64,000 bases of DNA, taken from contig NC_013523.1 of NCBI RefSeq assembly GCF_000024985.1, positions 1,240,001 through 1,304,000 on the forward strand, given 5' to 3'. The notes beneath the pieces are model-generated. The model was given only the letters and a program-made list of their open reading frames with translations, was not told the DNA's origin and did no database searches. The first letter of the stretch is position 1. Each line of letters starts with the position of its first letter. Made by a program: the position numbers and the translations under genes. Origin of the DNA: Sphaerobacter thermophilus DSM 20745. GTDB lineage: Bacteria > Chloroflexota > Chloroflexia > Thermomicrobiales > Thermomicrobiaceae. Shown piece after piece: positions 13,081 through 33,223 of this stretch.

Positions 13081-13086
13081 AGTCGT

Positions 13087-15394: not shown

Positions 15395-16849
15395 TCATTC
15401 CGACCACAGGTAGCGATAATGGGTGCGGACGTGCCGCACGCCGCCAGCGGACCACACCGTCAGAACACCGAGAGCAGCCGCGTACACCAGCGCCGCAGTT
15501 GCGATGGTGACCACGATGTTGTGGTGCCCGAAGACGACCAGGAACACCCCCATGCACAGGCTGGCGAGCGCGGGGGTGCGCATGGGCGCGAGCAGGTTGA
15601 CCGAACCGGCGATGCGGGAAACCTGGATGTAGTGCTGCACAACGCCGATACCTCGGGTTGCCACGATCGTGAGCGCGGCGCCGATCAGTCCAAACTGGCT
15701 GATGAGGATCACTCCCACAACCAGATTGGCCATCGTGTTGATAGCCACGATGCTCAGCGTGATCCGCTCTCGGTCCCCGGCGAGCAGTGTCTGCCCAAGG
15801 GCGGTCGTGTAGGCGCGGAGGAAGACTTCCCAGACGACGATGCGGAGCACGATGGCGCCCAGGGCGAAGTCCTGCCCGCCGTAGACCAGCACCAGGATGC
15901 GCTCGGCCAGAAATGACAACCCCACCACGATGGGCAGACCGATCACCAGCAGCAGCTCGGTGACGCGCTCGGACAGCCGCTTCAGACTCTCGAAACCCGC
16001 TTCGTAGCGGCGGCACATCACGGGGAACAGGCTTAGCACCACACTCTGGTAGAGCAGGACAACCGGTGTGAGGAGCTGCGACGACGCGCTGAGCAGCCCG
16101 ACGTCGGATTCGCTCCGGAACGACGACAGCAGGACGATCGTGATCGTGCCCCAGAGGGAGATGAGGACATCGATCGCGAGGAAGGGCGCCGTCTGGCGCA
16201 GGGCACGGTGGATAAAACCGAGATCGATCCGCAACGCCGGCCGGGTGACGCGCGAGACAACAAGTGCCAGCTCGAACGCGGCAATCACTCCCTGGGTGAG
16301 CAGCAGCAGCCCGACGACCGTGTAGATCCCGCCACCCTCTCGCAGCAGGACGAACGCGCCGCCCGCCTTCGCGAGGTTCAGCGGGATGTTGACGTAGGCG
16401 ATGAAGTGCATCTGCTCGACCGCCTGGAAGAGGGCCTCGCAGATCGTGGAAATCGTGTACGGGAGGAGAATGAGCGCCAACAGCAGGATCACCCGCGCGG
16501 TGTCGGCTCCGTAGCCCATGATCCGAACGAAGCCGAGAAGCAGCACGAGCGAGATGAGCGTCGCCCCGGTGACGATCGCGATGCCGTTGACCAGGTACTG
16601 GCCGGTCTTCGATCGATCCTTGGCCGCCTCGCGGATGATAAGAGTCTTCAGCCCGGCAGTGGCAAAGATCTGCGCCGTATAGACGACAGTCAGGGCCAGC
16701 GAGAGCTGACCGAAGCGGAACAGACCTAGGTGCCGCGTGACCAGTGCGTAGAGCACGAAGGTCGACGCTCGGGTGACCACGTCGCTGGCGAGAACGGAGG
16801 CGGCGTTGCGGGCTATCGTGCGCAGGCTGATCGAGAAGGTGTTGGACAT
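15395..16849 (-). CDS. Wzx-type oligosaccharide flippase
   Basis: 484 residues, almost wholly hydrophobic, with 12-14 membrane helices in the MATE/MOP polysaccharide transporter pattern. It starts NAASVLASDVVTRASTFVLY, GRLS-like TRHLGLFRFGQLSLALTVV and contains the repeated central break SLKRLSERVTELLLVIGLP. The family moves undecaprenyl-pyrophosphate-linked repeat units from the inner to the outer face of the membrane. It sits six bases from the ligase/polymerase gene upstream in the operon, giving the usual Wzx-Wzy pair of a Wzy-dependent pathway. A second flippase at 33334-34914 belongs to the other operon. Confidence 0.87.
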   Translation of the reverse strand: MSNTFSISLRTIARNAASVLASDVVTRASTFVLYALVTRHLGLFRFGQLSLALTVVYTAQIFATAGLKTLIIREAAKDRSKTGQYLVNGIAIVTGATLISLVLLLGFVRIMGYGADTARVILLLALILLPYTISTICEALFQAVEQMHFIAYVNIPLNLAKAGGAFVLLREGGGIYTVVGLLLLTQGVIAAFELALVVSRVTRPALRIDLGFIHRALRQTAPFLAIDVLISLWGTITIVLLSSFRSESDVGLLSASSQLLTPVVLLYQSVVLSLFPVMCRRYEAGFESLKRLSERVTELLLVIGLPIVVGLSFLAERILVLVYGGQDFALGAIVLRIVVWEVFLRAYTTALGQTLLAGDRERITLSIVAINTMANLVVGVILISQFGLIGAALTIVATRGIGVVQHYIQVSRIAGSVNLLAPMRTPALASLCMGVFLVVFGHHNIVVTIATAALVYAAALGVLTVWSAGGVRHVRTHYRYLWSE

Positions 16850-16855
16850 CGGCGG

Positions 16856-18421
16856 CTACCCCCCTACCCCAGTAGTGCGGTAGTTGGGGATAAACGCAGG
16901 CAGGCGCACCCAGTGGCTCGCCGACCGCCGAACCAGGTCGGCGCGGCTGAACCTGGTCAGGGCGATGAGGAGCCCAGCGATCAGGAACAGGGAGTCAAGT
17001 TGTGCCCAGCTCTTGTAGACATCGACGAACATGTGCACCGCTTCCCCCAGCAGGGATCCGAACACGGCCACGGCGAACGGCGCGAGGTCGGGACCGAGCG
17101 TGTTTGCGCAGTGCCATGCGCGGCGCACCGCGGCGAACACGATCCAGAGGAAGGCCAGCAGGCCCACCGGGCCGATCTCGGCCCAGATGGTCAGGTAGTA
17201 GTTGTGGATGCTGTAGATGAAGTGCGTTGAGAATTCAGGTCCGACATACGCCGGCAGCACGGCCGTGAAGTTGTTCAGTCCCACGCCGAGCGGATGGTCG
17301 CCGATTACACGGAACGCGATCTGCATCAGCGGGATGCGCGCTTCCGCTGCGCCATGGTCTTCTCCAAACAGGCGCGCGACCAGTGTCGGCCCAAAGATGA
17401 CGGCTGCCACCGTCCCGACCGCGGCCATCGCGACGATGGTCGAGGCCGCGAACCATCGGCGGTGCAACCCGATCGCGACGAGCACCATCAGCGCGATGCC
17501 TGCCGATAAGAAGCTGCCCCGCGAGAGCGTCAGGATGAGGGCGATCGTGCCCAATGGGAAGGCAGCACCGCCGAGCCAGCGCAGGCGTCTTGGCAGGCGA
17601 CAGATCGTGAGCGCGAGCGCCGGTGCGACGAGGAAGGCGAGGTACGAGCCCGCGGCGTTGGGTGAGCCGAGGGTGCCGGCGGCGCGGGTGAACCCCCCGG
17701 CGTAGACGCTGGTGGTGGTTACCCGGGTCGAGATACCCGCGACCTCGAAGGTGACCCCCGTCGCGGCGACCCCGATCATGATGATGCTCTCGAGCGCGAG
17801 CGCGACCATCATTGCAGCGATGATGACGTAGACATCCCGGCGCGTCTCCACGGTGCTCGCGACGTACAGGAACAGCGCCACGATCTGGACGAGCCAGAAG
17901 GTCTCGAACAGGGCCGCGGTGACGTCCGGCGCGAAGAGGATCGACACCACGTTCAGGAGGAAATACAGGAAGACCGGGAGCGCCTGGCGGAGCACCAGGC
18001 GCGGAGCGCGCGCAACGCCGGTGAGCGCGGCTCCAATCCAGAGTGCGTACAACCCTCCCAGCGCAGCGGTCCCCAGCGAGATGTTCCACCCGCCGATCCC
18101 GCCCAGCATGCCGATCTCTTCCCGGTAACCCAGGTAGATGTCGGGGCCGATCGGGATCGTCACGATCGTGAGAATGAGGAGGATGTAGCGCACGCGTCCC
18201 ACAACCGCTGCGACGAAGGGAGCCAGGAGCGCGGCGAGCAGCAGCGGGGCGAACCGGCTGTTCGACCCGGTCACGACGATCGCGGCGCCGCCGAGCGCGA
18301 GCCCGACGGCGGCCGCGAGGACTAACTGCGCAGGCCAGGACGTGACCAGACGGCCGATACCGCCCTGGCTCACTTCGGTGATCCACCTCGGTTGGACGAG
18401 GTTCCAACTCGCCACGCTCAT
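16856..18421 (-). CDS. O-antigen ligase / Wzy-like polymerase family protein
   Basis: 521 residues with 11-12 membrane helices. The Wzy_C/WaaL hallmark is the large outer loop followed by RIPLMQIAFRVIGDHPLGVGLNNF and HFIYSIHNYYLTIWAEIGPVG; the H-N-x-(Y/L) element in HNYYL is diagnostic. A second marker is LTLSRGSFLSAGIA. Such proteins either polymerise repeat units (Wzy) or attach the polymer to an acceptor (WaaL), on the outer face. Next to a flippase and a Wzc-like protein, polymerase is the likelier role, but these cannot be told apart by sequence here. Confidence 0.82.
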   Translation of the reverse strand: MSVASWNLVQPRWITEVSQGGIGRLVTSWPAQLVLAAAVGLALGGAAIVVTGSNSRFAPLLLAALLAPFVAAVVGRVRYILLILTIVTIPIGPDIYLGYREEIGMLGGIGGWNISLGTAALGGLYALWIGAALTGVARAPRLVLRQALPVFLYFLLNVVSILFAPDVTAALFETFWLVQIVALFLYVASTVETRRDVYVIIAAMMVALALESIIMIGVAATGVTFEVAGISTRVTTTSVYAGGFTRAAGTLGSPNAAGSYLAFLVAPALALTICRLPRRLRWLGGAAFPLGTIALILTLSRGSFLSAGIALMVLVAIGLHRRWFAASTIVAMAAVGTVAAVIFGPTLVARLFGEDHGAAEARIPLMQIAFRVIGDHPLGVGLNNFTAVLPAYVGPEFSTHFIYSIHNYYLTIWAEIGPVGLLAFLWIVFAAVRRAWHCANTLGPDLAPFAVAVFGSLLGEAVHMFVDVYKSWAQLDSLFLIAGLLIALTRFSRADLVRRSASHWVRLPAFIPNYRTTGVGG

Positions 18422-18496: not shown

Positions 18497-19654
18497 TCAG
18501 TCAGCGGTCCGCGCGAGCCCCGGTGCGGGTTGCTCCCGCTCCAGGACGTCGCGGATCGCGCTTGCGACATAGTCGATCGCGTCGTTCGACATCTCCGGGT
18601 ACATGGGGAGCGATAGGATCTGTTCGGCGACGGCCTCCGTGACCGGGAAGGCGCCGCGCTCGTAGCCGAGATTCCTGCAGGCCGGCTGCAGGTGGATCGG
18701 GATCGGATAGTGGATACCTGTCGCGATGCCGCGCTCGGCCAGTGCGGCGCGCATGGCGTCCCGCTGGGGAACCCGGATCACGTAGAGGTGCCAGACCGGC
18801 TCTGCGTACGATGGCACCGAGGGGATGACGACGCTCTCCGGTAAGACCTCCGAGTAGCGTTCGGCATGGCGGCGCCGCGCGGCGTTCCACTCGTCGAGGT
18901 GGCGGAGCTTGATCCGCATGACCGCCGCTTGCAGCGTGTCCAGCCGGCGATTGAAGCCAGACTGCAAGTGGTGGTACTTCTCGCGCTGGCCGTAGTTGCC
19001 GAGGAGTCGAACCGCGTCGGCTACCTGGGCGTCTGCCGTGACGACCATACCGCCGTCGCCATAAGCGCCGAGGTTTTTTGCCGGGTAGAAGCTGAAGGCT
19101 GCGGCGTGGCCGAAGGTGCCGACCCGCCGGTCTTTGTAGCGAGCGCCGTGCGCCTGGCAGGCATCCTCGATCACGATCAGGCCGTAGCGCCGGGCGATTT
19201 CCATGATCGGGTCCATGTCGGCCGGTTGGCCGTACAGGTGGACCGGCATGATGGCCTTGGTGCGCGGCGTGATGGCCTTTTCCAGTAGCTCCGGATCCAT
19301 GTTGTAGGTGCTCGGATCCACGTCCACGAGCACCGGCGTCGCCCCCGTGTAGGCGATCGCAAACACCGTTGCGACGAACGTGTTGGCCTGGGTGATGACC
19401 TCGTCCCCTGGGCCGATATTGAAGGCCCTCAGCGCGAGCTCCAGCGCCGATGTGCCCGAGTCGACACCAACGGCGTGTTCGATTTCGCAGTAGTCGGCGA
19501 ACTCGCGTTCGAACGCCGCTACGTCGGCGCCAAGGATGAAGTCGGCGCCGCGCAGCACGCGCGCGATGGCCTCATCGACCTCGGGCGCGATGCTGTCGTA
19601 CTGGGCGGCCAGGTCAACGAAGGGGATGCGACGCTGATTCTGCTGGATAGACAT
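18497..19654 (-). CDS. DegT/DnrJ/EryC1/StrS family sugar aminotransferase
   Basis: 385 residues, a PLP fold-type I enzyme that transaminates a keto-sugar nucleotide. It begins IPFVDLAAQYDSIAPEVDEA; GVDSGTSALELALRA binds the cofactor phosphate, VIEDACQAHGA carries the PLP-nitrogen aspartate (about 164), and SFYPAKNLGAYGDGGMVV holds the Schiff-base lysine at 193. The end has GIHYPIPIHLQPA and the usual LSLPMYPEMSN. The start codon is preceded by GGAGGAG and lies inside the end of the upstream dehydrogenase gene (41-base overlap). Together they look like the WbpB-WbpE type step: oxidise C3 of a sugar nucleotide, then aminate it. Confidence 0.9.
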   Translation of the reverse strand: MSIQQNQRRIPFVDLAAQYDSIAPEVDEAIARVLRGADFILGADVAAFEREFADYCEIEHAVGVDSGTSALELALRAFNIGPGDEVITQANTFVATVFAIAYTGATPVLVDVDPSTYNMDPELLEKAITPRTKAIMPVHLYGQPADMDPIMEIARRYGLIVIEDACQAHGARYKDRRVGTFGHAAAFSFYPAKNLGAYGDGGMVVTADAQVADAVRLLGNYGQREKYHHLQSGFNRRLDTLQAAVMRIKLRHLDEWNAARRRHAERYSEVLPESVVIPSVPSYAEPVWHLYVIRVPQRDAMRAALAERGIATGIHYPIPIHLQPACRNLGYERGAFPVTEAVAEQILSLPMYPEMSNDAIDYVASAIRDVLEREQPAPGLARTAD

Positions 19655-20693
19655 AGAGCGACTCCTCCGTACTCACGAGTTCGACCGGCGTGCCACGCAT
19701 GGCCATCGACTTGTCCACTGCCTCAAGAACACGCACCACATCGCGCCCGGCGTCGCCGTCCGTGAGTGGCCGACGTCCGTGGATGACGCAGTCGGCGAAG
19801 TGGCTGGCGAGTGTCTTGAGCGGCTCCCGGGGTTGGATGCTCGGGCTAATGATGTCGCCGTCGCGCACCACCAGCTGGTCCCCGCTGTAGCCCTCCCCGT
19901 TCTGCATCAAGGGGGCTACGCCCTTCTCAAAGACACGCACTTGTTCCATGGTTTGAAGGTCGTTGAAGACAATCCGCTTGTCGCTTCCAACGACAACGAC
20001 TTCGCGAACCTTGTGGGGATCGGCCCAGCTCACATGGATCTGGCCCAGCACGTTGTCGGGATACCCGAGGACGATGAACCCGACGTCCTCGCGACCGTTG
20101 CGCAGCGCTCGCGAGCCGACCGCGCTGACCCAAAGCGGGGCGGTGCCCATGAAGTAGTTGAAGATGGAGATGTCGTGCGGGGCGAGGTCCCAGAGCGCAT
20201 TGACATCTCTCCGGATTGGCCCGAGGTTGGTGCGACGTGCGTACAGGTAGTAGATCCGACCCAGCTCTCGCCGGTCGATGTACTCTTTGACGCGCTGCAC
20301 GCCCGCGTTGTAGAGGAACGTATGCCCTACCATGAGGGTCAGCTTGCGGGCCGCGGCGGCCGCGATCAGGTCCCCGGCGTCCTCGCCCGTCGTCGCGATC
20401 GGCTTCTCCACCAGGACGTGTTTCCCTGCACGGAGACACTCGCGCGCCACGCGGTGGTGGGAAGTGGCCTCGGTGCAGACCACGACGGCGTCGACGCCCG
20501 GTGTGGCCAGGGCTTCCGCGACATCCGTCGTCACGGCGACGCCTGGGTACCGTTGGGCGATCTCGCGCACCCGCTCGGGCCGTTGGTCGCAGGCCACGAC
20601 GACTCGCGTCTCGGGGATCTCGTTGAAAACTCGGACGTAGTTGACGCCCCAGTAGCCGCAGCCGAGGACCGCGATGCCTACCTGTTCAACCAT
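19614..20693 (-). CDS. Gfo/Idh/MocA family sugar-nucleotide oxidoreductase
   Basis: 359 residues. The N-terminal Rossmann domain has IAVLGCGYWGVNYVRVF; the cofactor-side EKP motif is in HVLVEKPIATTGEDAG; the C-terminal beta-sheet domain has WDLAPHDISIFNYFMG where the catalytic histidine of the family lies. It resembles UDP-N-acetylglucosamine(-uronate) 3-dehydrogenases (WlbA/WbpB), which feed a 3-keto sugar to a DegT aminotransferase. That partner overlaps its 3' end, which supports the pairing. The ATG follows GGAGGACGGAGGG. The exact sugar is inferred from context. Confidence 0.88.
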   Translation of the reverse strand: MVEQVGIAVLGCGYWGVNYVRVFNEIPETRVVVACDQRPERVREIAQRYPGVAVTTDVAEALATPGVDAVVVCTEATSHHRVARECLRAGKHVLVEKPIATTGEDAGDLIAAAAARKLTLMVGHTFLYNAGVQRVKEYIDRRELGRIYYLYARRTNLGPIRRDVNALWDLAPHDISIFNYFMGTAPLWVSAVGSRALRNGREDVGFIVLGYPDNVLGQIHVSWADPHKVREVVVVGSDKRIVFNDLQTMEQVRVFEKGVAPLMQNGEGYSGDQLVVRDGDIISPSIQPREPLKTLASHFADCVIHGRRPLTDGDAGRDVVRVLEAVDKSMAMRGTPVELVSTEESLYVYPAESASHPLR

Positions 20694-20725: not shown

Positions 20726-21520
20726 CTATCCAGCTCCGGTGCCCCGGAGCACCGCCGGAACCGTCCGGGCGAGGATCTTGAGGTCCAGCGCTGTGGACTG
20801 GTTCCGTACGTACTCAAGGTCGAGCGCGATCATCTCGTCGAAGGTGAGCGCGCAGCGGCCGGTGACCTGCCACAAGCCGGTGATGCCAGGCAGGGCTGCC
20901 AGGCGCTCGAAGTGCCACGGCTCGTAGTGCTCGACCTCATAGGTGGGTACCGGCCGTGGCCCGACGAGGCTCATGTCGCCCTTGAGCACGTTGACGAGTT
21001 GCGGCAGTTCGTCGAGGCTGGTTGCCCTCAGGAAGCGCCCGACCCGGGTAACCCGCGGGTCGCCGGTGAGCTTGAAGCCGCCCTTGCCGGGACCACGCCG
21101 CACCTGCCCGTTCGCGTAGGCAGCGATGTGTGCCCGGTGGAGCGATTCGTCCGCGTTGTGCACCATCGAGCGGAACTTGTAGAAGCGAAACGGTCGGATC
21201 TCCCATGCCCCGGTGGATCCGCGACGGCGCAGGCGCGCGCCGACCCGCTCGTGGGCGAAGATCACCGGTCCCGGAGAGTCCAGCTTGATCGCTAACGCGA
21301 TCACCACGAGCACCGGCGACAACAGCACCAAGGCGGCACAGGACAGGACGATGTCGATGCAGCGCTTGGTGGCGTAATAGCGCAGTCGCCGTTGATCGAT
21401 TTGCGTGACAACCACCCGTGGGATCTCCACCGCCTGCTTCGCCTGCTTCATGACTGTGTCCTTCCCCAGGTTCAGCGCGGTGGTCTGGGAGTGCGGCGAG
21501 TGATCCTGAGCGTGTGCCAT
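20726..21520 (-). CDS. Undecaprenyl-phosphate sugar-1-phosphate transferase (bacterial sugar transferase)
   Basis: 264 residues. One hydrophobic hairpin ([20 protein letters not shown]) leads into the WbaP/PglC catalytic domain: [71 protein letters not shown] and [12 protein letters not shown]. These are the signature blocks of enzymes that load the first sugar phosphate onto undecaprenyl phosphate. It lacks the extra N-terminal membrane domain of the longer WbaP proteins and so resembles the monotopic PglC-type core. The ATG at 21520 has GGGGAAG seven bases ahead and nearly touches the stop of the Wzc-like gene; a GTG six bases earlier is possible. Confidence 0.92.
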
Positions 21521-21522
21521 AG

Positions 21523-23157
21523 TCACTCTTCCCCACGCAGTGACGACTCAGAAGCTTCTTCCGCTACCCGCTGGCGCCGTCGCGCGGACCGCCCGTTCGG
21601 GATAGCGACCGGTGCTAGTTGCTCGTGCACGACTGAGCGAGCGCTCGTGCCCACTTCGTAGCTCTCCGCCGGCTCGTCGTCGTCGGCGTCCGCCTGGTTG
21701 GCGACGACCCCGACCACGCGTGCCTGGAGCGTTTCGAGCTTGCGGATAGCGGCGATCACGGCCCCCTCGCGGGCGCGCCCGCGCTGGACCACCAGGATGA
21801 CGCCGTCGACGATTCCGGCCAGGATCGCGGCATCGGCCACCTGTTCGAGTGGTGGCGCGTCGAGGAGGATCAGATCCGCCGTCCCGCGAAGCTCGGTCAG
21901 GAGCTGACCCATCCGCTCAGAGCCGAGCAGTTCGGGCGGATAGGCCGGCTCGGGGCCGCTGGTCAGCACCTGGATTCGCGGGATCCTCGTAGTCTGGAGT
22001 GCGTCGGCCACCGGCGCCTCGTCGCGCAGCACGCTGGTTAATCCACAGTCGTTCGGCAGTCCGAAGAACTGGTGCTGTCTCGGCGATCGCAGGTCGGCAT
22101 CGATGATGACAACGCGACGGTTCGCCCCGGCGAGCACGAAGGCGAGGTTCGCCGTCACCGTGGATCGTCCCTCGCCGCGCTGCGAGCTGGTGATCACGAT
22201 CGCCTTCAGCGGTTGACGGGCGCCCTGGTAAAGCAGATTCGTTCGCAGCCAGCGGAACGCCTCGAGCAAACGGGCGTTCGCCGAGACGAGCAGGATGCGG
22301 GCACGTCGCCCGGAACGCGGGATGACAGCGAGGATCGGGACCCGTGCTGTGCGCCGGATGGCCCCCGTGGTATAGAGGCGATCGTCCAAATTCTCGACGA
22401 GGAAGGCGAGCCCGACGGCGCCGACGAGGCCGACACCCAGTCCCAGAGCCAGGTTCAGCAACTGGTTGGGCGAGCTCGGGCTCTCGGGGGGTACGGCTGG
22501 GTCTGCCAGCACGATCTTGTCGCTACGCGTGGCCTCGGTGACCCGAGCGCGGTCGTACTGCGCCTGCAGCGAGTTGTACTCCTGCTGCCGCATGTCGAGT
22601 TCAATCCGGGCAGCAGCGACTTCGGTCGGGTCCGCCTGCGGGTCCGCCGCCAGCGACTCGTACCGGAGTCGGGCTTCGAGCAGCGCCTGCTGGGCCTCCG
22701 CGAAGTCCTCTCCCAGGGCCTGGCGCGTTTCGGGATTCTCCTGCTGGGCAGCCTCCACATGGGCCGCCAGTGCCGTCGCGGCAGCGTTGGCGATCGCGGC
22801 AGCCATGGCGGGGTCGCGGTGAGCGGCGCTAATATTCAGGAGTTCCGAGTTGGCCGGAGCGGTCCCGGAAATCTCCGGCAGGGAACTAAGCTTCAGCTCC
22901 TCCGCCACCTGCTCGCGCACGGAGTGGCTGGTTACCAGCGTCAGGTAGGTGTTGAGCAACCGGTCCGTATAGGTCGGGTCCCGGATTACGTAGTCAATCG
23001 AGCCCGACGTCACGGAGACCCGAGCCGTCGCGGTCGCGACGTAGACAGGCGTAACCAGCCGATTCGCGGTGACCGCGACACCCAATGCTGTCAGAACCGT
23101 GAGGAGAACGATCCACCTCCGGCGCCACAGGATGGCCGCGTAGGCGCGTAGTTCCAT
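21523..23157 (-). CDS. Wzc-like chain-length determinant / tyrosine-kinase-type ATPase with altered P-loop
   Basis: 544 residues. A Wzz domain (membrane helix WIVLLTVLTALGVAVTANRL, outer coiled-coil region about 140-210, second helix about 232-255 with PSSPNQLLNLALGL) is joined to a CpsD/CapB-type ATPase domain. Walker A' (VVIIDADLRSP, Asp353/Asp355) and Walker B (LILLDAPP, Asp433) are intact. The P-loop reads SSQRGEGRST: the otherwise invariant lysine is Arg331, from a clear CGA codon. The C-terminus has only one tyrosine (Tyr500) rather than a tyrosine cluster. It normally controls polymer length and export; this copy may be a weak or inactive kinase. The ATG at 23157 fits family starts; the frame runs upstream without ribosome sites. 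It is the first gene of the leftward operon. Confidence 0.88.
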   Translation of the reverse strand: MELRAYAAILWRRRWIVLLTVLTALGVAVTANRLVTPVYVATATARVSVTSGSIDYVIRDPTYTDRLLNTYLTLVTSHSVREQVAEELKLSSLPEISGTAPANSELLNISAAHRDPAMAAAIANAAATALAAHVEAAQQENPETRQALGEDFAEAQQALLEARLRYESLAADPQADPTEVAAARIELDMRQQEYNSLQAQYDRARVTEATRSDKIVLADPAVPPESPSSPNQLLNLALGLGVGLVGAVGLAFLVENLDDRLYTTGAIRRTARVPILAVIPRSGRRARILLVSANARLLEAFRWLRTNLLYQGARQPLKAIVITSSQRGEGRSTVTANLAFVLAGANRRVVIIDADLRSPRQHQFFGLPNDCGLTSVLRDEAPVADALQTTRIPRIQVLTSGPEPAYPPELLGSERMGQLLTELRGTADLILLDAPPLEQVADAAILAGIVDGVILVVQRGRAREGAVIAAIRKLETLQARVVGVVANQADADDDEPAESYEVGTSARSVVHEQLAPVAIPNGRSARRRQRVAEEASESSLRGEE

Positions 23158-23517
23158 TCCACCACTCTCGTCTAGGGAGGCAGCCACGCGACACCGCGTC
23201 GGTCTCCTCCGAGGTTTGGGCTGCTCCCAGACTGTCCCTGTCGCGCCCGTTCGGTCCACCGAGCCACCCCGCGCCGTGAGCGCCGGTGTGGGTGACGTCG
23301 CCGCTGCGGCGGAGTGCAGCGTGAGTCCGCTCCGAATAGACCCTTGGGCGGGGGACAGTGACCCGCGCAGCTCCGGTCCTGCGCTGCGCGCTGATCGGGC
23401 CGGCGTCGTGAACTCTCCACCGACCGACTAAGGCCCGACCATCGACCGGAGTTTTCGTGTGTCAGTATGGCGGTGTCTAATTAACATGGGGCCTTGAACT
23501 GTCCGCGTAGTCGATAA

Positions 23518-23639: not shown

Positions 23640-24773
23640 CTAGGCGTAGCGGTAGACGAGGGCCCCTGCACGCGCCACGAGCGGGAGCGGCAAGCGCCGC
23701 CACGCAGGCTTCGTTAGCCGCCGCAGTGTGCTGGCACGCGAGCGGGTACTGGGGATGTTCTGAGGCTCCGGCGGGTGACTCTCTCGGTAGCGATACATCG
23801 GCCGTGGCTGTCCACCCCACTTGCGCTTGTACCGTGCCAGACCGCTCTCTGGGTGGGCGTCGCCGAGGTCGACGCGACGATATCCCGCCTCCCACGCGGA
23901 CTGGACGATATGCCACTGGATCAGGTCCTGGCAGTGGAGCTGCCCCGCAATCGGGCTCCGGGCGATGTACTCTCCAAGAACGGTCTGGGAATTGAGGAGG
24001 AGGATCTCTCCCCCGATGAGTTCCGTGGCCTCTCCCGTCCGCCGCTCCACCACGAGGAGCTGGAGGAGTCCCGCCGGGCGCAGGTGGTGCCACGCCGCAT
24101 CAAACAGGCGAAAGGGGAGCGGCGGGGATTCTTTCTCCCGCATCGTAGCCACATACAGGCGATACCATGCGGTGAGATCGTCGAAGCGCTCGGCTTCCCG
24201 GAGCCGCAAGCCATATTCTCGTGCCTTCTTTACCCCGCGTTTGATCACACCATGCTTGGCTGAAGGTCCGAAACGGAGAGGCTCTGTGCGCTCCGGAAGG
24301 TCGATCACATAGGTCGGACTACCCTCGACCCTGGTGAGGACAGTGCCTCCTGGGTCAATGTCCGGCACCATCGAGTGGAGTACTAGCTGGCGAGCGGGCG
24401 GTTCCTGTGCCAACTTGATCGCAGTCTGAATCAGGGCATTCGTGGCTGCAGCACTGGTAGTGAGCGGACCGGCCACGGCCGTGCAGGGGAGCGACCAGAG
24501 CTGACGGCCGCGGATCAACCCGCGTCGGTAGACCAACGGCAGCACCCCGTGCAGCCTCCCCTGGTCGTCTTCGCAGGCGAGATGAGCAGGAGGGTAGCCG
24601 AACGTGTCGGCGAGAGTTGCGATCCAGGCGGGGTGATGGAACGCCAGCCCGTCCGGATGCGTTGTCACGAACGCCGCCCAGCGGGGGTCCGCCGTGGGGT
24701 CGACCAAGTCGACGCGTAGCCGGCCGGGATCGTGTTGGGTCTGCGGGATCGATGCGGTTGCCATGGTTGCCAT
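23640..24773 (-). CDS. FemAB/GNAT-like (Acetyltransf_6) transferase, paralogue 1
   Basis: 377 residues, soluble, one of four tandem paralogues that share layout and many motifs. N-half: VDPTADPRWAAFVTTHPDGL, FHHPAWIATLADTFGYPPAH, LACEDDQGRLHGVLPLVYRR, LWSLPCTAVAGPLTTS. C-half: DLIQWHIVQSAWEAGYRRVD, LGDAHPESGLARYKRKWGGQ, PRPMYRY. This double-GNAT layout with a final YKxKWG belongs to the FemAB-like / peptidoglycan interpeptide-bridge and exosortase-associated acyltransferase group, which moves an aminoacyl or acyl group onto an amine. Acceptor and donor are unknown. Two ATGs nine bases apart can start it (24773 or 24764); GGGA stands better for the second. Confidence 0.8.
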   Translation of the reverse strand: MATMATASIPQTQHDPGRLRVDLVDPTADPRWAAFVTTHPDGLAFHHPAWIATLADTFGYPPAHLACEDDQGRLHGVLPLVYRRGLIRGRQLWSLPCTAVAGPLTTSAAATNALIQTAIKLAQEPPARQLVLHSMVPDIDPGGTVLTRVEGSPTYVIDLPERTEPLRFGPSAKHGVIKRGVKKAREYGLRLREAERFDDLTAWYRLYVATMREKESPPLPFRLFDAAWHHLRPAGLLQLLVVERRTGEATELIGGEILLLNSQTVLGEYIARSPIAGQLHCQDLIQWHIVQSAWEAGYRRVDLGDAHPESGLARYKRKWGGQPRPMYRYRESHPPEPQNIPSTRSRASTLRRLTKPAWRRLPLPLVARAGALVYRYA

Positions 24774-24814
24774 TCCCAGGTCGTCTCGAGTCGCGTGCCG
24801 CCATCGGATGACGC

Positions 24815-25942
24815 TCACAGATAGTGGGTCACCATGGACCCGATCCACTCGGTCGCGGCCAGTGGGACGTGCTGCCAGCCTGCCTGGCCAAGCCGGGTCA
24901 ATCGCCGCTGGAGCGAGGCGGGACTGGTGAGCCGGGCGTGCTGTCGGCCCGCTGGGTAGAAGTACCGGTAGACGGGATGCGGCTGCCCGCCCCACTTCCG
25001 CTTGTAGCGCACCAAACCCTCCTGACCGGTCGGCACATTTCCCAGGTCGAAGGCGCGGCAACCAGCCTCCCACGCGATGTGAAGCGACTCCCAGTACAAG
25101 AGATCGTGGAGGTGAAGCGTGCTCGTCCGGTCACGCTGACCGATGCCTTCGCCAACCGCCGTCTCCGACACCATGAGGGTGATGGCTCCGCCGACCAGCT
25201 CGGACGAGCCTCCCGACTGCTGCTCGATCAGAATGAGTCGCAGGAACCCCTTGGGGTGCAGGTGATGCCAGGCAGCGTCGAAGAAACGGAACGGGTTGGG
25301 GGGCGACATCTTTCGGCGCATGCCCGCGAGGTAGAGCCGATACCATGCACGCAGGTCATCGATGCTCTTACCCTCCCGCGCCCGGAGGCTGTATTCTTTG
25401 GCTTTCTTGACACCGCGCCGGATATCGCTCTGATACCCAGGAGCGCCGATCCGCAACGGGTCGGTGCGGTTTGGCAGGGGTATCATGTACGTCGGGTACC
25501 ACTCGCAACGCTGCAACGATGGAACGCGCTGATCGAGATCCGGACACAGCGTCTTGAAGTGGAGGTGCTGCCCCACCTCGTACTCGGTGAACTCCACGGC
25601 AGCCTGCACCAGGGCGGTGGCCGCCGCATCGCTGGTTGCCAGCGGTCCGGCCAGCGGCGTGTGCGGGAGGGACCAAAGCGCCTTCCCGCGCAGCCATCCA
25701 TGGCGGTACACGAGCGGGAGAAAACCGCACAGGATTCCCTGGTCGTCCTCGCACGCCAACGCGACCGCCCGGTACCCGAACGTGTCGACCAGCGTTTGGA
25801 ACCACGCAGGATGGTGGAAGGGAAGGCCGTCCGGGTGGGACTCAACGAACGAGGCCACCCGCGGGTCGGCTGTGTGGTCAACCAGCGTTACTCGCAAGTG
25901 TTCCCGTGACAGGGGCGTTTCCAGGAGACTTTCGGTGCGCAT
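24815..25942 (-). CDS. FemAB/GNAT-like (Acetyltransf_6) transferase, paralogue 2
   Basis: 375 residues. It has the same blocks as its neighbours: VDHTADPRVASFVESHPDGL, FHHPAWFQTLVDTFGYRAVA, LACEDDQGILCGFLPLVYRH, then RRGVKKAKEYSLRAREGKSI, MSPPNPFRFFDAAWHHLHPK and GLVRYKRKWGGQPHPVYRYF. It is closest to paralogue 1, including the shared GVKKA(R/K)EYSLR-type middle part. The ATG at 25942 follows GAAGGA with nine bases of spacing. The gap to paralogue 1 is 41 bases, in keeping with one operon. The last 40 residues (basic, LTRLGQAGWQHVPLAATEWI) may form a membrane-contacting helix. The chemistry is inferred from the family only. Confidence 0.8.
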   Translation of the reverse strand: MRTESLLETPLSREHLRVTLVDHTADPRVASFVESHPDGLPFHHPAWFQTLVDTFGYRAVALACEDDQGILCGFLPLVYRHGWLRGKALWSLPHTPLAGPLATSDAAATALVQAAVEFTEYEVGQHLHFKTLCPDLDQRVPSLQRCEWYPTYMIPLPNRTDPLRIGAPGYQSDIRRGVKKAKEYSLRAREGKSIDDLRAWYRLYLAGMRRKMSPPNPFRFFDAAWHHLHPKGFLRLILIEQQSGGSSELVGGAITLMVSETAVGEGIGQRDRTSTLHLHDLLYWESLHIAWEAGCRAFDLGNVPTGQEGLVRYKRKWGGQPHPVYRYFYPAGRQHARLTSPASLQRRLTRLGQAGWQHVPLAATEWIGSMVTHYL

Positions 25943-25971
25943 GATGTCTTGTCCTTCACCACTCTCACGCA

Positions 25972-27081
25972 CTACAGATACCGGTGGATCCAGCGACCGA
26001 GCGGCCTCGTCGCTGCCGGCGGCAGGCGGCGCCAGCACGCAGCCGCAAGCCTGGCCTGCCCCCGAGTGCGCGAGCGCGGACTAGACAGGCGGGTGCCCCA
26101 GTCGGTGGGGGGGTGGAAGTAGCGGAAGAGCGGGCATGCGCGCGCGCCCCACACCTCCTTGAACTGTTGGAGTCCTGTCTGGTCGGGCGCGGCACTGCCC
26201 AGGTCGTAGCGTCGATAACCGGCCTCCCATGCCTGTTTGATGGCCTGGCCTAGGATCAGGTCGCTCGGGTGGTACTGCCGGGCGTCCACCCGGTCGGCAG
26301 CGAACTGATCGGTGACCGTAGTGCTCCCGTGGAGCAAGACGGCTCCGCCGAGGAGTTCTGTGCGTCCGCCCGCTGACCGCTCCGCCAGGAGCAGGCGGAG
26401 CAGTCCCTGCGACCGCATGTGGGTCCAGGCAGCCTCGAAAAGGGAGAGTGGGAGTGGTGGGTGGCCGAGGCGGCGGAGCGTTTGGACGTAGAGGTCGTAC
26501 CACGCGTGGACGTCGGTAACACCTTCGGCGTCGCGAACCCGAACCCCGGCGCGGACCGCCTTGGCTATTCCCCGACGCCGGGACTTGGAAAAGCGAAGGG
26601 CTTCCGACCGATCTGGCAGGTCGATGACGTAGTTCGGGTACCAGTCGACGCGTAGGAACGGCACATCGTTGACTGCGAGATCCGGCAGTTCGGAATGGAT
26701 CTGCAGGCGTTGCCCGGCTGTATCGCCGGCAAGTTCGGCCGCGGTGCGGACCAGCGCCCCTACGGCGGCCCGGCTCCGAGCCAGCGGGCCGGCGATGGGT
26801 GTGTATGGTAGAGACCAGAGCTGTCGGCCACGGAGCAGCCCGCGGCGGTAGAAGAGCGGCAGGACTCCGTGTAGCGCGCCATGCTCGTCCTCGCAGGCCA
26901 GATGAACGGGGGCGAAGTCGAATGTGTCGGCCAGCGTGGCGAGCCACGCAGGATGATGGAATGCCAGCCCGTTCGGGTGTGATGCCACGAACGCAGCCCA
27001 CCGGGGATCGGTAGTCGGATCTACCTGCCGCACGCGAAGCGCCGGCGTGCTGACAGGCCTGTGCTCGATTACGGGCTGCAT
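25972..27081 (-). CDS. FemAB/GNAT-like (Acetyltransf_6) transferase, paralogue 3
   Basis: 369 residues. It keeps VDPTTDPRWAAFVASHPNGL, FHHPAWLATLADTFDFAPVH, LACEDEHGALHGVLPLFYRR, GRQLWSLPYTPIAGPLARS, DLILGQAIKQAWEAGYRRYD and a final VWGARACPLFRYF. The terminal YKxKWG of paralogues 1 and 2 is changed to FKEVWG, and the middle is shorter (RRGIAKAVRAGVRVRDAEGV), which suggests a different acceptor. The ATG at 27081 has an excellent AAAGGAG. It is spaced 29 bases from paralogue 2. Confidence 0.8.
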   Translation of the reverse strand: MQPVIEHRPVSTPALRVRQVDPTTDPRWAAFVASHPNGLAFHHPAWLATLADTFDFAPVHLACEDEHGALHGVLPLFYRRGLLRGRQLWSLPYTPIAGPLARSRAAVGALVRTAAELAGDTAGQRLQIHSELPDLAVNDVPFLRVDWYPNYVIDLPDRSEALRFSKSRRRGIAKAVRAGVRVRDAEGVTDVHAWYDLYVQTLRRLGHPPLPLSLFEAAWTHMRSQGLLRLLLAERSAGGRTELLGGAVLLHGSTTVTDQFAADRVDARQYHPSDLILGQAIKQAWEAGYRRYDLGSAAPDQTGLQQFKEVWGARACPLFRYFHPPTDWGTRLSSPRSRTRGQARLAAACWRRLPPAATRPLGRWIHRYL

Positions 27082-27211
27082 CGACAATCTCCTTTCCCAA
27101 CCCCGGTGTGACCCTGCTAGCGTGTCTCCCGATTGAGTGTGCACGCCCGATGGACCGTACTGGTGTAGGATCGGGGAATCCCGGCCACCGGGGCCGCACA
27201 CGCCGCCTTTC

Positions 27212-28396
27212 TCACAGGTATTGGTAGATCCCCTCGCCGAGATGCTGTGTGACTGTGAGCGGCAGCATCCGCCACGTCGCTTGCGCTGCTGCCCGCATCC
27301 GGCCGCGCGACGCCACGACGTCCATGACGACGTCTTTGGGAGCGGGGTAGAAGTAGCGGTAAAGCGGCCGCGGCTCCGCACCCCACTTCAGTTTGAACCG
27401 CGCCAGGCCGTCGTCTCCCGGCTCCACTTCGCCCAGGTCGAACCGATGGTGTCCTTGCTCCCATGCCGTGTGGATGGCAGTCCACTGGATCAGGTCGTTG
27501 GGGCGTAGCGAGAGCGCGTCCTGACGGTATCCGGTGAAGGCGAACATCGTCGTGCGCGCACAGGGGAAATAGACACATCCGCCCAGCATCTTCGTACCGT
27601 CCGGGGTGGGCAGCTCGGCTAACAGGACCGACATCAGCCCCAGGGGTCTGAGCCGCTCCCAGGCAACACTGAAAAAGCGGAACGAGCGCGGCGGCACGCC
27701 CAGCCGACGCATGGTCAAGAGGTAGAGGTGGTACCATTCGCGCAGCTCATCCAGCGTGTGGACCTCCCGCGTGACCACCCCGTTCTTGAGCGCCTTCTTG
27801 ACTGCCCGTTTGATCCGCTCGCGATGGCGGGACGAGAGGAAAGGGGGTGGCTCCGGCGGGCTAGGCAGGTCCACGACGTATGTCGGATCCCACTGGACAG
27901 GCGCCAACCCTTCGCCGTCCGCGCACAGGTCGGGCGCGTCTGCCTTGATCATGAGCCCTTGATTGCCGCCACTCCTGGCGCGCTCCACTGTGGCGCGGAG
28001 GAGCGCGGCAGTCGCGGTCGGGCTGGTCGTGAGCGGACCGCACACGGGGGTGTGCGGCAGGGACACCAGGCGGCGTCCGCTGATCAGTCCACGCTGCGAG
28101 AAGAGCGGTAAGACTCCCAGCAGGTTCCCGCTCGCATCTTCGCAGGCGAGGTGGGCCGGTTGGTAGCCATAGGTCTCTTCGATCACCTGTGACCAGGCTG
28201 GATGGTGATACACATGCCCATCAGGATGGGCGGTCACGAAGTCCGCCCACCGGCGGTCCGTCTCCGGGTCGATCTCCACGACGCGGAGGGGTTCTGTCAG
28301 GTCGGTGTCTTCACCGACACCAGGCGTGTCTGAACCGGCCGACCGCGCCGGACCGATCAACCCGACATCATCCCTCGCCAGGTGGTTACTCGGCAC
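27212..28396 (-). CDS. FemAB/GNAT-like (Acetyltransf_6) transferase, paralogue 4
   Basis: 394 residues, the most divergent of the four. It has an N-terminal extension of about 35 residues, then EIDPETDRRWADFVTAHPDG, YHHPAWSQVIEETYGYQPAH, LACEDASGNLLGVLPLFSQR, LVSLPHTPVCGPLTTSPTAT, RIKRAVKKALKNGVVTREVH and DGLARFKLKWGAEPRPLYRY. GTG 28396 is chosen because GGAGGA lies five bases upstream; it overlaps the end of the decarboxylase gene by 11 bases, so the two are coupled. That overlap ties the transferase family directly to the lipid-type enzyme. A role in acylating an amine made by the upstream enzymes is a reasonable guess, not shown. Confidence 0.8.
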   Translation of the reverse strand: MPSNHLARDDVGLIGPARSAGSDTPGVGEDTDLTEPLRVVEIDPETDRRWADFVTAHPDGHVYHHPAWSQVIEETYGYQPAHLACEDASGNLLGVLPLFSQRGLISGRRLVSLPHTPVCGPLTTSPTATAALLRATVERARSGGNQGLMIKADAPDLCADGEGLAPVQWDPTYVVDLPSPPEPPPFLSSRHRERIKRAVKKALKNGVVTREVHTLDELREWYHLYLLTMRRLGVPPRSFRFFSVAWERLRPLGLMSVLLAELPTPDGTKMLGGCVYFPCARTTMFAFTGYRQDALSLRPNDLIQWTAIHTAWEQGHHRFDLGEVEPGDDGLARFKLKWGAEPRPLYRYFYPAPKDVVMDVVASRGRMRAAAQATWRMLPLTVTQHLGEGIYQYL

Positions 28397-29249
28397 GGGA
28401 TTCCTCCAATACTCCACTGGGCGAGACTTCGATCCCTCGAAGTCCCCTCCCGTCGATGATGCCGAGGATCGACTCCCCGGCCGTGACGTGCTCGCCAGGA
28501 CGGACGGTCACGCGCAGTCCCTCGACTGCGGGCAGCACTAGATCCACCTGTGAACCGAGGCGGATCACGCCGATGCGCTGGCCCAATGAGACCTCCTGGC
28601 CTTCGTTCACGAACGACGCGATCTGGCGGACGAGACGCGAAGCGATCTGCACCACTGCGACCTGGAGGTCGCCGTTCTCGATGACAGTGGTGACGCGCTC
28701 GTTGGCGAAGATCATGTGCGGGTCCCGCAGCGAGCCGAACAATCCGGGGAAGCGTCGGAGCGACGCGATTCGGCCCGCGATCGGGGCCCGATTCACGTGC
28801 ACGTCCAGGAAGCTCATCCCGATGCCGATCACGATGGCACTCTGAATCTGCAGCGGGGTTCCAGTCAGTTCGCGCAGGGTGTAGTTCCGGCCGTGCTTGG
28901 TGGCCACCGGTAGTTCGCCGTTGGATGAGTGGTGGACGTAGAGCACGGTGCCATCGGCCGGACTGACGATGGCGTCGTCGCGGTCGGGAGCAACGCGCTC
29001 CGGATCGCGGTAGAAGCGATAGGCGAGCACCGCAAAGGCCCCCGCGAGCGTCGACGCACCGGTCAGGACGGCGCGAACACGACCGCTGAGCGCGAGGGCT
29101 TTGCCGAGCATGGTCACCAGGGTAGCCGACGCGGTCGCCAGTGCCGTGACCGCCGCCGCGGTGCGGCGTAGACCGAGCTGCCACTTCCAGGCCAATGCGA
29201 GTGCGGTACCGAGGGCCGCCAGGCCCCCGGCGACGACGTAAGAAAACAT
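28386..29249 (-). CDS. Phosphatidylserine-decarboxylase-like protein
   Basis: 287 residues. Two hydrophobic N-terminal segments (VVAGGLAALGTALALAW and a second near residues 57-77) precede the decarboxylase core: YRFYRDPERVAPDRDD, IVSPADGTVLYVHH, SFLDVHVNRAPIAGRI, HMIFANERVTTVIENG, GVIRLGSQVDLVLPAVEGL. The Gly-Ser in RLGSQVDL is where this pyruvoyl family cuts itself. Known members decarboxylate phosphatidylserine or archaetidylserine, giving an amine head group at the membrane. In this operon, between an ATP-grasp ligase and four acyl/aminoacyl-transferase-like proteins, it could make an amine acceptor other than ordinary phosphatidylethanolamine; that is inference. The ATG is four bases from the upstream stop. 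Confidence 0.85.
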   Translation of the reverse strand: MFSYVVAGGLAALGTALALAWKWQLGLRRTAAAVTALATASATLVTMLGKALALSGRVRAVLTGASTLAGAFAVLAYRFYRDPERVAPDRDDAIVSPADGTVLYVHHSSNGELPVATKHGRNYTLRELTGTPLQIQSAIVIGIGMSFLDVHVNRAPIAGRIASLRRFPGLFGSLRDPHMIFANERVTTVIENGDLQVAVVQIASRLVRQIASFVNEGQEVSLGQRIGVIRLGSQVDLVLPAVEGLRVTVRPGEHVTAGESILGIIDGRGLRGIEVSPSGVLEESRAE

Positions 29250-29252
29250 GTC

Positions 29253-30548
29253 TTAGAACCCCCGTTTGATCGCTTCGTACGGGATCAGTGCGAGTTCGAA
29301 GATCCCGGGAAGGGGATCCTCGCGCGCGAAGACCGACTCGATGTGGATGCCGCGCAGCGAGCGCAGGTAGGAGCGCAAGGACAGGGTCCCAGCCTTGATC
29401 TCGACGGCGCCGGTCGGCAGGTCCGTCACCAGGCGGATCCAACGGATACCCGGCTGGGCACGGCAGGGCTCGACCGGCAGGCCAACCTGGTCGGCGTACA
29501 GGAGGTACGGGAAGTCCACCCCCGCCCGTTGCCCGAGGGTGTGGTAGCCCCAGGCACGCGCGTTGATGTCAAGGAGCTTGTACCGCCCGTCGCGCGGATC
29601 GAGCTTGTACTCCATCTCCACGAGGCCGTAGAAATTGACGTGGCGCAGGAAGCGCTCGGACAACTCTTCGAGCAGAGGGATATCGACGGTCTCAGCCAGG
29701 GTGCTCGCCCGCCCGAACTCCGGCGGGTGCTGGCGCCGCCGCTGGGCGACCATGCTGCCGATCGCCTGCCCGTCCTTGTAGAAGGCGCAGTAGGCGAACT
29801 GGTGGCGCCCGTCGCCGGGTATCACTTCCTGCACCATCGCTTCGCCGGGCTCGACCAACGCCGCGGCGCGCTGGAACTTTTCCCGCAACTCCTCGCGGTT
29901 GTCCGCTCGCCAGGCTTTCGCCTTCGTCGCGTAGATGAAGTGCTCCTTGATGGCAGGCTTGATTGCGACCGGGAATTCGAGATCCAGCTCGTCGAGCTCA
30001 CCGACATCTCGGGGACACCAGGTGCGCGGTGCCGGGATGCCGAGTTGACCGGCCATGTCGTAAGTCCGGCGCTTGTCCCAGATCCACTGGACGCTGTCCC
30101 AACCAGGGCTCGGCACGCGAAACTGGGTGGCGAGTGTGTCGCGGTAGCGGGCAAAGGCCGCCACGTTCTCATCTCGGGTTGGGTACAGGATCCATCCGTC
30201 CAGTCCAAGTCGCCGCCCGACGTCGAGGACCGTGTCGACTGCGCGCTGCTCATCGAGGAGGTCGGGGACGCGGACGTGGTGCGTGGTGTACCGGGAGACC
30301 CGGCTGACCGAGATCTCGTCGTCGATAACGCACACCGGGATGCCGCGCCGTCCGAGGCTCCGGACGATGCCGAGCCCAGGGAAGTTCCCGCCGACGACGA
30401 CGGCACCGACCGTCTCCGTACCCGGGTAGGCACCGAACTGGGTCCAGCGTGGCTCGGTGCGGGCCGGGCTGTCCGCGTCCTGTCGATCGACGGTGCTCGC
30501 AGCACCCCGTTCCGACGCTGTGTGCTCCCGAATGGTGCGTTCGGTCAC
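29253..30548 (-). CDS. ATP-grasp ligase, carboxylate-amine type
   Basis: 431 residues. After a low-complexity N-terminus of about 45 residues come the pre-ATP-grasp Rossmann part (VGAVVVGGNFPGLGIVRSLG, VCVIDDEISVSRVSRYTTHH), the ATP-grasp lysines and glycine-rich region (WDKRRTYDMAGQLGIPAPRT, PVAIKPAIKEHFIYATKAKA) and the metal-binding end (YGLVEMEYKLDPRDGRYKLL, DINARAWGYH). This matches stand-alone ATP-grasp proteins that join a carboxylate to an amine or activate it as acyl phosphate. The GTG start at 30548 follows GGAAGGG. It is followed within four bases by the decarboxylase gene. Substrates are unknown. Confidence 0.85.
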   Translation of the reverse strand: MTERTIREHTASERGAASTVDRQDADSPARTEPRWTQFGAYPGTETVGAVVVGGNFPGLGIVRSLGRRGIPVCVIDDEISVSRVSRYTTHHVRVPDLLDEQRAVDTVLDVGRRLGLDGWILYPTRDENVAAFARYRDTLATQFRVPSPGWDSVQWIWDKRRTYDMAGQLGIPAPRTWCPRDVGELDELDLEFPVAIKPAIKEHFIYATKAKAWRADNREELREKFQRAAALVEPGEAMVQEVIPGDGRHQFAYCAFYKDGQAIGSMVAQRRRQHPPEFGRASTLAETVDIPLLEELSERFLRHVNFYGLVEMEYKLDPRDGRYKLLDINARAWGYHTLGQRAGVDFPYLLYADQVGLPVEPCRAQPGIRWIRLVTDLPTGAVEIKAGTLSLRSYLRSLRGIHIESVFAREDPLPGIFELALIPYEAIKRGF

Positions 30549-30607
30549 GGCCTGTTCGCCCTTCCAACCTGTTCCTCGCGGCGGTGTCGTGCGATGTGCG
30601 AGCCGGG

Positions 30608-31300
30608 TTAGCGGTGGTCGCTGGCTGCCACCTGCGACTCGGACGCAGCTCGGGTAAAGTCACGGCGATCCCCGAGCAGCGCATCGTGCTCGCGGCTGTA
30701 GTACGTGGCGAGAGACTCGTCCTGCGGTCTCGGGGTGATGCGGTCAGCGAGCGGCATCGTTTGCTGGAAAAGCGTCCACCCGTACTCCAACGCACGGGCG
30801 TACACGTCTTGGACTTCGTCAAACTCGGGGTAGATGGAGTACTCCACCTGGGCGATGATTGGCCCGTCGTCGATCCCCGGTGTGATCTCGTGGATGGTGA
30901 CGCCGTGCTTCTGCTCGCCGTTCTTCAGCGCCCAGTTGATTGGCGACACGCCCCGGTAGCGGGGGAGGGGGCCGTTGTGGAGATTCCAAATCCGCTCACA
31001 CTTGGCGATGAACCACGGGCGGATGATGTGCCCGTAGAAAACCGACATTGCCAGGTCGACGCGCCAGGAGGCGTCGTGCACCCCTTCGATGTCCCGGTAG
31101 TGCCCGGAGGAGACGACAGGGACACCGTGCTCGTGTGCCCAGGCCGTCAACGAATCGGTCCAGATCGGCTCGGGAACCACCGGAACGACCTGTGTCAGGT
31201 GGTAGTCAGGGCTTCGATGAAACCAGTCGGCGATCCGGATGGCCAGGGTTCCTTTCCCGAGCACGATGACGGTGCGCGGTCGACTGGGCTGCAGGCTCAT
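30608..31300 (-). CDS. Formyltransferase-fold protein (Fmt/sugar N-formyltransferase-like)
   Basis: 230 residues, the N10-formyltetrahydrofolate-dependent formyltransferase domain without the C-terminal RNA-binding domain of Fmt. Asn106 and His108 in IWNLHNGPLPRYRG, and Asp144 in GIDDGPII, match the catalytic residues N106/H108/D144 of E. coli methionyl-tRNA formyltransferase. A true fmt is present at 62507-63451, so this one most likely formylates a small amine, such as an amino sugar. Sugar N-formyltransferases occur in polysaccharide loci and often have such short forms. The ATG at 31300 follows GTGAGGA. It is the first gene of the leftward FemAB unit. Confidence 0.8.
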   Translation of the reverse strand: MSLQPSRPRTVIVLGKGTLAIRIADWFHRSPDYHLTQVVPVVPEPIWTDSLTAWAHEHGVPVVSSGHYRDIEGVHDASWRVDLAMSVFYGHIIRPWFIAKCERIWNLHNGPLPRYRGVSPINWALKNGEQKHGVTIHEITPGIDDGPIIAQVEYSIYPEFDEVQDVYARALEYGWTLFQQTMPLADRITPRPQDESLATYYSREHDALLGDRRDFTRAASESQVAASDHR

Positions 31301-32883: not shown

Positions 32884-32901
32884 ATCTGTGAACTCTTGCA
32901 G

Positions 32902-32975
32902 CGGGAGCGACGGGATTCGAACCCGCGATCTCAGCCTTGACAGGGCTGCATGTTAGGCCACTACACCACGCCCCC
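32902..32975 (-). tRNA. tRNA-Asp (GTC)
   Basis: 74 nt. Acceptor arm GGGGGCG / CGCTCCC, D arm TGTAGTGGCCTAACA, anticodon loop CTGTCAA in the stem CAGCC/GGCTG, T arm GCGGGTTCGAATCCCGT, discriminator G. The CCA end is not encoded. A near-identical second copy lies 174 bases upstream. Confidence 0.95.
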
Positions 32976-33130: not shown

Positions 33131-33149
33131 CGTGTGAGATGCTGTCTGG

Positions 33150-33223
33150 CGGAAGCGACGGGATTCGAACCCGCGATCTCAGCCTTGACAGGGCTGCATG
33201 TTAGGCCACTACACCACGCCTCC
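33150..33223 (-). tRNA. tRNA-Asp (GTC), second copy
   Basis: 74 nt, identical to the other copy except in the acceptor arm, where GGAGGCG pairs with CGCTTCC: the third pair is A-U instead of G-C. The paired change shows that both copies are kept functional. It has its own promoter. Confidence 0.95.

Follow-up and report, generated by a model that had tools for sequence, protein, structure and literature searches.

In a 64,000-nucleotide window (positions 1,240,001–1,304,000) of the larger replicon of Sphaerobacter thermophilus DSM 20745, which has a two-replicon genome of 3,993,764 bases, seven minus-strand genes encode a formyltransferase (FT), an ATP-grasp ligase (GRASP), a phosphatidylserine-decarboxylase-like enzyme (PSD), and four FemAB-like transferases (F4, F3, F2, and F1). 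We find that the conserved core of this set is the trio GRASP–PSD–FemAB: outside the genus, these three alone recur together. We propose, with a probability of about one-half, that the trio is a decoration module of the Wzx/Wzy exopolysaccharide pathway surrounding it, working by ligation, decarboxylation, and aminoacylation. An earlier note, made from the sequence alone, had read all seven genes as a single pathway. All seven are there in the order it gave, but they do not hold together as a conserved unit, because FT has the sugar aminotransferase DegT as its partner and one Sphaerobacter genome retains FT, GRASP, and FemABs without PSD.

How widespread is the trio among Chloroflexota? Of 120 genomes of the class, just two have GRASP and PSD side by side: S. 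thermophilus (G000) and a sister species of Sphaerobacter (G041, whose contig is that of Sphaerobacter sp. HOG56). Screening 400 genomes across the phylum added one more PSD of this subfamily, 61% identical, in another Chloroflexota class (G156). There a GRASP comes before it and a FemAB nearest to F4 (43%) after it, in the order and with the tight spacing seen in S. thermophilus; no second trio was found among 177 genomes of that class. The subfamily, like the trio, is rare, being present in three genomes (G000, G041, and G156) of the several hundred Chloroflexota searched. GRASP identity to the S. thermophilus protein is 92% in G041, 64% in G156, and 77% in a third Sphaerobacter genome (G073), which retains FT, GRASP, and three FemABs without PSD. 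Gene order in other Chloroflexota, which the earlier note had offered as a check, is thus preserved for the trio (G041 and G156) and, outside the genus, not for the seven genes. In the literature searched, we found no description of a FemAB combined with a PSD and an ATP-grasp enzyme, in line with the note, which knew of no described pathway of such make-up.

Because the trio recurs in G156, a chance neighbourhood is unlikely. It could still be that GRASP, PSD, and the FemABs modify different molecules and that the polysaccharide cluster gathers foreign genes, a reading to which G073 (GRASP and FemAB without PSD) and the separate occurrence of homologues of each family in other genomes lend some weight. 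The like order and tight spacing in two distant lineages, together with the translationally overlapping PSD and F4 genes of S. thermophilus, make it quite improbable. Next to the G156 trio lies a gene for a secreted protein of the lysyl-oxidase family (PF01186), with a similar-looking second protein close by (locus L098, 9839–10696, minus strand, and 12416–13171, plus strand). Such a protein could oxidise exported amines, which would suit an amine-bearing product, although this is a single case.

Is the decarboxylase a conventional lipid enzyme? PSD is the sole PSD match in the S. thermophilus genome and retains the pyruvoyl-forming GS motif and the catalytic Asp and His (D99, DVH151V, LGS233Q). 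It falls below the cut-off of every curated PSD model scanned (152.8 bits at best, versus 183), as does the G156 orthologue (161.7 bits, same cut-off). The PSDs of G000, G041, and G156 alone share an insert of ~20 residues, which is missing from 28 other PSDs of the class. S. thermophilus has two CDP-alcohol transferases, one pgsA-like and one PIPS-like. We saw no phosphatidylserine synthase (PssA) of the phospholipase D (PLD) type, the PLD-family matches of the genome lying solely inside frames of >1100 aa, and no real PssA of the TIGR00473 kind in G000, G041, or G156 (best 26–32 bits), synthases of the PTDSS/Lipocone type (PMC12419801) not having been searched for. By comparison, a TIGR00473 PssA of 92–118 bits lies ≤2 kb from the PSD in each of nine further PSD-bearing genomes tested (G009, G029, G033, G051, G063, G093, G195, G290, and G311); three absences versus nine presences give a Fisher P of ~0.005 with relatedness ignored. 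Judged by sequence, then, PSD is an orphan, without a recognisable phosphatidylserine synthase in its genome. The classical phosphatidylethanolamine pathway was rejected for lack of a PssA in the genome, and ordinary phosphatidylethanolamine, the outcome that the earlier note had set against its own reading, becomes unlikely to the extent of that search, which did not cover the PTDSS type.

PSD might nevertheless be an ordinary decarboxylase of phosphatidylserine, or of a diol-lipid phosphoserine, that sits in the exopolysaccharide cluster by chance, draws on a nonhomologous or unrecognised synthase, and yields an ethanolamine phospholipid. Its full length, complete catalytic residues, and status as the only PSD of the genome would agree with such a role, and a base-exchange (PTDSS/Lipocone) synthase falls outside the scope of the PssA search. 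However, neither bacterial PssA type was found in G000, nor the CDP-alcohol type in G041 and G156, while the other PSDs tested in the phylum lie near PssA; the close relatives G073 and G007 have similarly low-scoring CDP-alcohol transferases and yet no PSD; and the subfamily is conserved beside GRASP and FemAB, not beside lipid genes. We consider this reading unlikely.

A genome-contig scan with PSD retrieved nothing beyond the Sphaerobacter sp. HOG56 record and one distant PSD of alphaproteobacterial origin, whose locus holds a CDP-alcohol transferase motif; the plasmid-borne relatives examined (Ruegeria and Aliiroseovarius) adjoin pssA. A further family in the class (f11; L016, L019, L022, L027, L029, L033, and relatives) is PSD-like, with the pyruvoyl serine replaced (FGGQ) and the His motif changed (DVPICR), and is conserved and probably inactive.

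What might the trio do? GRASP matches PF15632 just above the cut-off, and its profile matches to 2pn1, CarB, and Ddl show an ATP-grasp core. In our proposal, GRASP would first link an amino acid to a sugar unit by an amide bond such that the alpha-amine and alpha-carboxylate stay free—for example, aspartate joined via its side-chain carboxylate to an amino sugar or lysine joined via its side-chain amine to a uronic acid. PSD, acting on the attached amino acid instead of phosphatidylserine, would then remove the carboxylate to give a primary amine (a beta-alanyl group, for instance). The FemABs would extend or cap this amine with aminoacyl-tRNA-derived amino acids, in as many as four reactions, whether successive or alternative. 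A side-chain-linked amino acid fits PSD because a pyruvoyl decarboxylase requires an unblocked alpha-amine adjacent to the carboxylate, and the product fits the FemABs because a primary amine is the usual acceptor of FemABX enzymes. The amino sugar would be supplied by OXR, an oxidoreductase, and DegT, and FT would cap some of it while it is still a nucleotide sugar; in G073, an undecarboxylated amino acid would be aminoacylated instead. We infer this order of steps from the chemistry and the gene order. The acceptor would be a lipid-linked polysaccharide unit, as suggested by the neighbourhood, by the precedent of HfsK (PMC5362036), and by the GRASP family members found within OXR–DegT–sugar-transferase clusters of G084 and Bradyrhizobium. 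That each family works on amines or carboxylates, as the note had it, is supported. That a PSD-family pyruvoyl enzyme has been recruited for an amino acid on a lipid-linked glycan, so that ATP-grasp, PSD, and tRNA-dependent FemABs build amine side chains of an exopolysaccharide, is a tentative proposal, somewhat short of an even chance.

Two loci with GRASP homologues are recorded here in their own right. In G084 (L060, 9143–15582), two tandem homologues, a glycosyltransferase–polysaccharide deacetylase fusion, and a FemAB stand in a row inside an OXR–DegT exopolysaccharide cluster. On a Priestia megaterium plasmid (L105, 5995–10192), a homologue belongs to a row with a PIG-L deacetylase, a GT4 protein, and a phosphotransferase, near spore coat and exosporium genes.

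The same chemistry could serve the cell wall. D-aspartate ligases join aspartate by its beta-carboxylate, and GRASP might similarly ligate aspartate to an ornithine side chain, PSD convert it to beta-alanine, and the FemABs modify the resulting murein bridge. S. thermophilus murein is of the A3beta type, with ornithine, and cross-links via beta-alanine (PMC3035262), and aspartate linked through its side chain is a type of substrate that a pyruvoyl decarboxylase could accept. However, walls with ornithine and beta-alanine are reported for Dictyobacter as well, of another Chloroflexota lineage (PMC12453558), and a PSD subfamily found in three genomes of several hundred is too uncommon across the phylum to serve as the general beta-alanine route. 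Since, moreover, G073 has no PSD and the genes belong to a polysaccharide cluster and are not accompanied by mur genes, we view a murein bridge as distinctly improbable.

The four FemABs are, from their sequences, products of tandem duplication. In a tree of 22 sequences, F1–F4 fall together with the three copies from G073 and the one from G156 (97/95 support), and in this group F4 and one G073 copy make up one branch and F3, F2, and F1 the other; because the latter includes G073 orthologues of F3 and F1, the duplications are older than the split within the genus. The double-GNAT make-up that the earlier note had seen in all four paralogues is borne out, as a FemX fold, by profiles (E 9.5e-42 to Staphylococcus aureus FemX) and by an AlphaFold model of F4 (pLDDT 83), whose comparison with FemX, a check the note had proposed for all four, gave Z 28 and an rmsd of 2.7 over 299 residues. 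The other matches were FemA (Z 26.6), Sba18/Sbb17 (25.5), MprF (21.8), and CoA-dependent tandem GNATs (15.8). Because this ranking places tRNA-dependent enzymes above CoA-dependent GNATs, we infer that the predicted donor is aminoacyl-tRNA. F4 K335 aligns with the catalytic Lys305 of FemX, the only reactive residue close to its substrate (PMC12945691); the lysine is invariant in 20 homologues and retained in F1–F4. Differences in a terminal "YKxKWG" block had been taken as a sign of different acceptors, but the block is identical in F1 and F2 (RYKRKWG, versus RFKLKWG in F4 and QFKEVWG in F3) and so says little about them. Scores of F1–F4 to TIGR03019 are 110–126 bits and do not reach the cut-off of 260. 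The exosortase/PEP-CTERM link hinted at by that model was rejected, as the S. thermophilus genome has no PF09721 match at E 0.001.

Are all seven genes real? Start codons were assigned from ribosome sites and G041 orthologues. The intergenic distances from FT through GRASP, PSD, F4, F3, and F2 to F1 are 59, 3, −11, 130, 29, and 41 bases, so that the 11-base overlap of PSD and F4 reported in the earlier note is exact; the F4 GTG start at 28396 is preceded by GGAGGAAT. None of the seven is a chance open reading frame, because all are under purifying selection, with dN/dS of 0.08–0.19 and zero frameshifts between S. thermophilus and G041. Just upstream are two near-identical tRNA-Asp genes (32901–32975 and 33147–33223, minus strand), accompanied by one match resembling a promoter and one resembling a terminator and kept in G041. 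A special tRNA for the FemABs was considered and set aside: the pair, near-identical and not found in the G073 or G156 loci examined, is taken as housekeeping.

The seven genes are no free-standing unit; they form one end of a larger Wzx/Wzy exopolysaccharide cluster, to which we assign them because a chain-length regulator, sugar-phosphate transferase, flippase, polymerase, and glycosyltransferases lie around them (Table 1). The first four of these lie next to the set, as in a Wzx/Wzy-dependent cluster, and the glycosyltransferases, with a UDP-sugar dehydrogenase, likewise lie downstream, which bears out the surface context that the note had claimed. The arrangement is repeated in G041 and, minus PSD and F2, in G073.

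Table 1. Genes of the seven-gene set and of the adjoining exopolysaccharide cluster, in window coordinates
Gene	Positions	Strand	Assignment	Profile evidence
FT	30608-31300	-	sugar N-formyltransferase-like	PF00551, 76 bits
GRASP	29253-30548	-	ATP-grasp carboxylate-amine ligase (CPSase-like), trio gene 1	PF15632
PSD	28386-29249	-	PSD-like pyruvoyl decarboxylase, trio gene 2	PF02666, E 7.8e-43
F4	27212-28396	-	FemAB-like double-GNAT transferase, trio gene 3	TIGR03019, 126 bits, under cut-off
F3	25972-27081	-	FemAB-like paralogue	
F2	24815-25942	-	FemAB-like paralogue; not present in G073	
F1	23640-24773	-	FemAB-like paralogue	
Wzz/Wzc	21523-23259	-	chain-length regulator with tyrosine autokinase domain	TIGR01007, above cut-off
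Sugar-phosphate transferase	20726-21526	-	undecaprenyl-phosphate sugar-phosphate transferase	TIGR03025, 272 bits
OXR	19614-20693	-	Gfo/Idh oxidoreductase, UDP-GlcNAc 3-dehydrogenase-like	NF040723, 181 bits, cut-off 450 not reached
DegT	18497-19654	-	sugar aminotransferase	TIGR03588 and relatives, under equivalog cut-offs
Wzy	16856-18421	-	Wzy/O-antigen ligase family polymerase	PF04932
Wzx	15395-16849	-	flippase	PF01943

OXR and DegT are compatible with a 3-amino sugar pathway. On sequence grounds, FT goes with these amino-sugar genes and not with the trio, because in G024, of another family, a 68–69% identical relative is the immediate neighbour of DegT and the sugar-phosphate transferase (with an oxidoreductase ~8 kb off). 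FT has the Asn-x-His motif and the Asp of its family (NLHN, GIDDGPII), and its nearest solved relative is the ArnA formyltransferase. In the G156 cluster, a VanZ family gene (L098, 15492–16106, minus strand) adjoins a formyltransferase.

These surroundings also bear on whether the product of the trio is a small metabolite bearing an amine, or a lipid-anchored peptide, instead of a polysaccharide substituent. FemX-like tRNA-dependent enzymes do act in natural-product pathways, such as that of BD-12 (PMC12945691), but no adjoining genes for transport, regulation, or biosynthesis of such a kind are present, the neighbours being Wzc, Wzx, Wzy, and glycosyltransferases; such a product seems very unlikely.

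Several observations weigh against a polysaccharide decoration module. G073, with GRASP and three FemABs and no PSD, implies that decarboxylation is dispensable for the rest, and co-conservation in three genomes reflects few independent events, possibly a single transfer. With every canonical catalytic residue, PSD could act on a phosphoserine lipid from an unrecognised synthase, and its N-terminus gets only a weak transmembrane score, which leaves membrane anchoring unsure. GRASP adjoins unrelated genes in more distant homologues, and its structure prediction from two sequences (pLDDT 37) was not used and did not narrow the substrate class. The substrates given here for the genes are, moreover, proposed ones.

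If the proposal is true, a lipid-enzyme family gains a second job in polysaccharide chemistry, and ATP-grasp, pyruvoyl, and FemAB chemistry come together in a single pathway to surface sugars that bear amines. It would explain orphan PSD genes in genomes without a phosphatidylserine synthase and would warn that a PSD gene alone is no evidence of phosphatidylethanolamine.

How does the trio compare with known systems? PSD shares the pyruvoyl family and the retained Asp, His, and GS residues with phosphatidylserine and archaetidylserine decarboxylases (PRK05305, TIGR00164) and differs in its sub-cut-off scores, ~20-residue insert, and own N-terminal extension; its genome, moreover, yielded no phosphatidylserine synthase of the PssA types searched. 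Haloarchaeal archaeosortase anchor synthesis (PssA/PssD; PMC7157517) likewise employs a PSD-family enzyme in surface attachment, but with a phosphatidylserine synthase and a sortase, neither of which was found in S. thermophilus. F1–F4 resemble FemABX enzymes (Weissella viridescens FemX; S. aureus FemX/FemA) in their double-GNAT fold (Z 27–28 over ~300 residues) and Lys305 equivalent, at 18–20% identity and in an exopolysaccharide rather than a murein context. Also comparable are Caulobacter holdfast HfsK, a FemAB-like protein that modifies polysaccharide by indirect evidence (PMC5362036), and the XrtA-associated FemAB of TIGR03019, both tied to exopolysaccharide; here, by contrast, the scores are under the cut-off, there is no exosortase, and a tandem array of four is coupled to GRASP and PSD. 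The streptothricin-type enzymes Orf11 and Sbb17/Sba18 share the fold and aminoacylate an amino-sugar-containing intermediate from tRNA, Sbb17/Sba18 being FemX-like and acting on streptothrisamine (PMC12945691); they serve an antibiotic pathway with a small soluble acceptor, unlike the exopolysaccharide setting of F1–F4.

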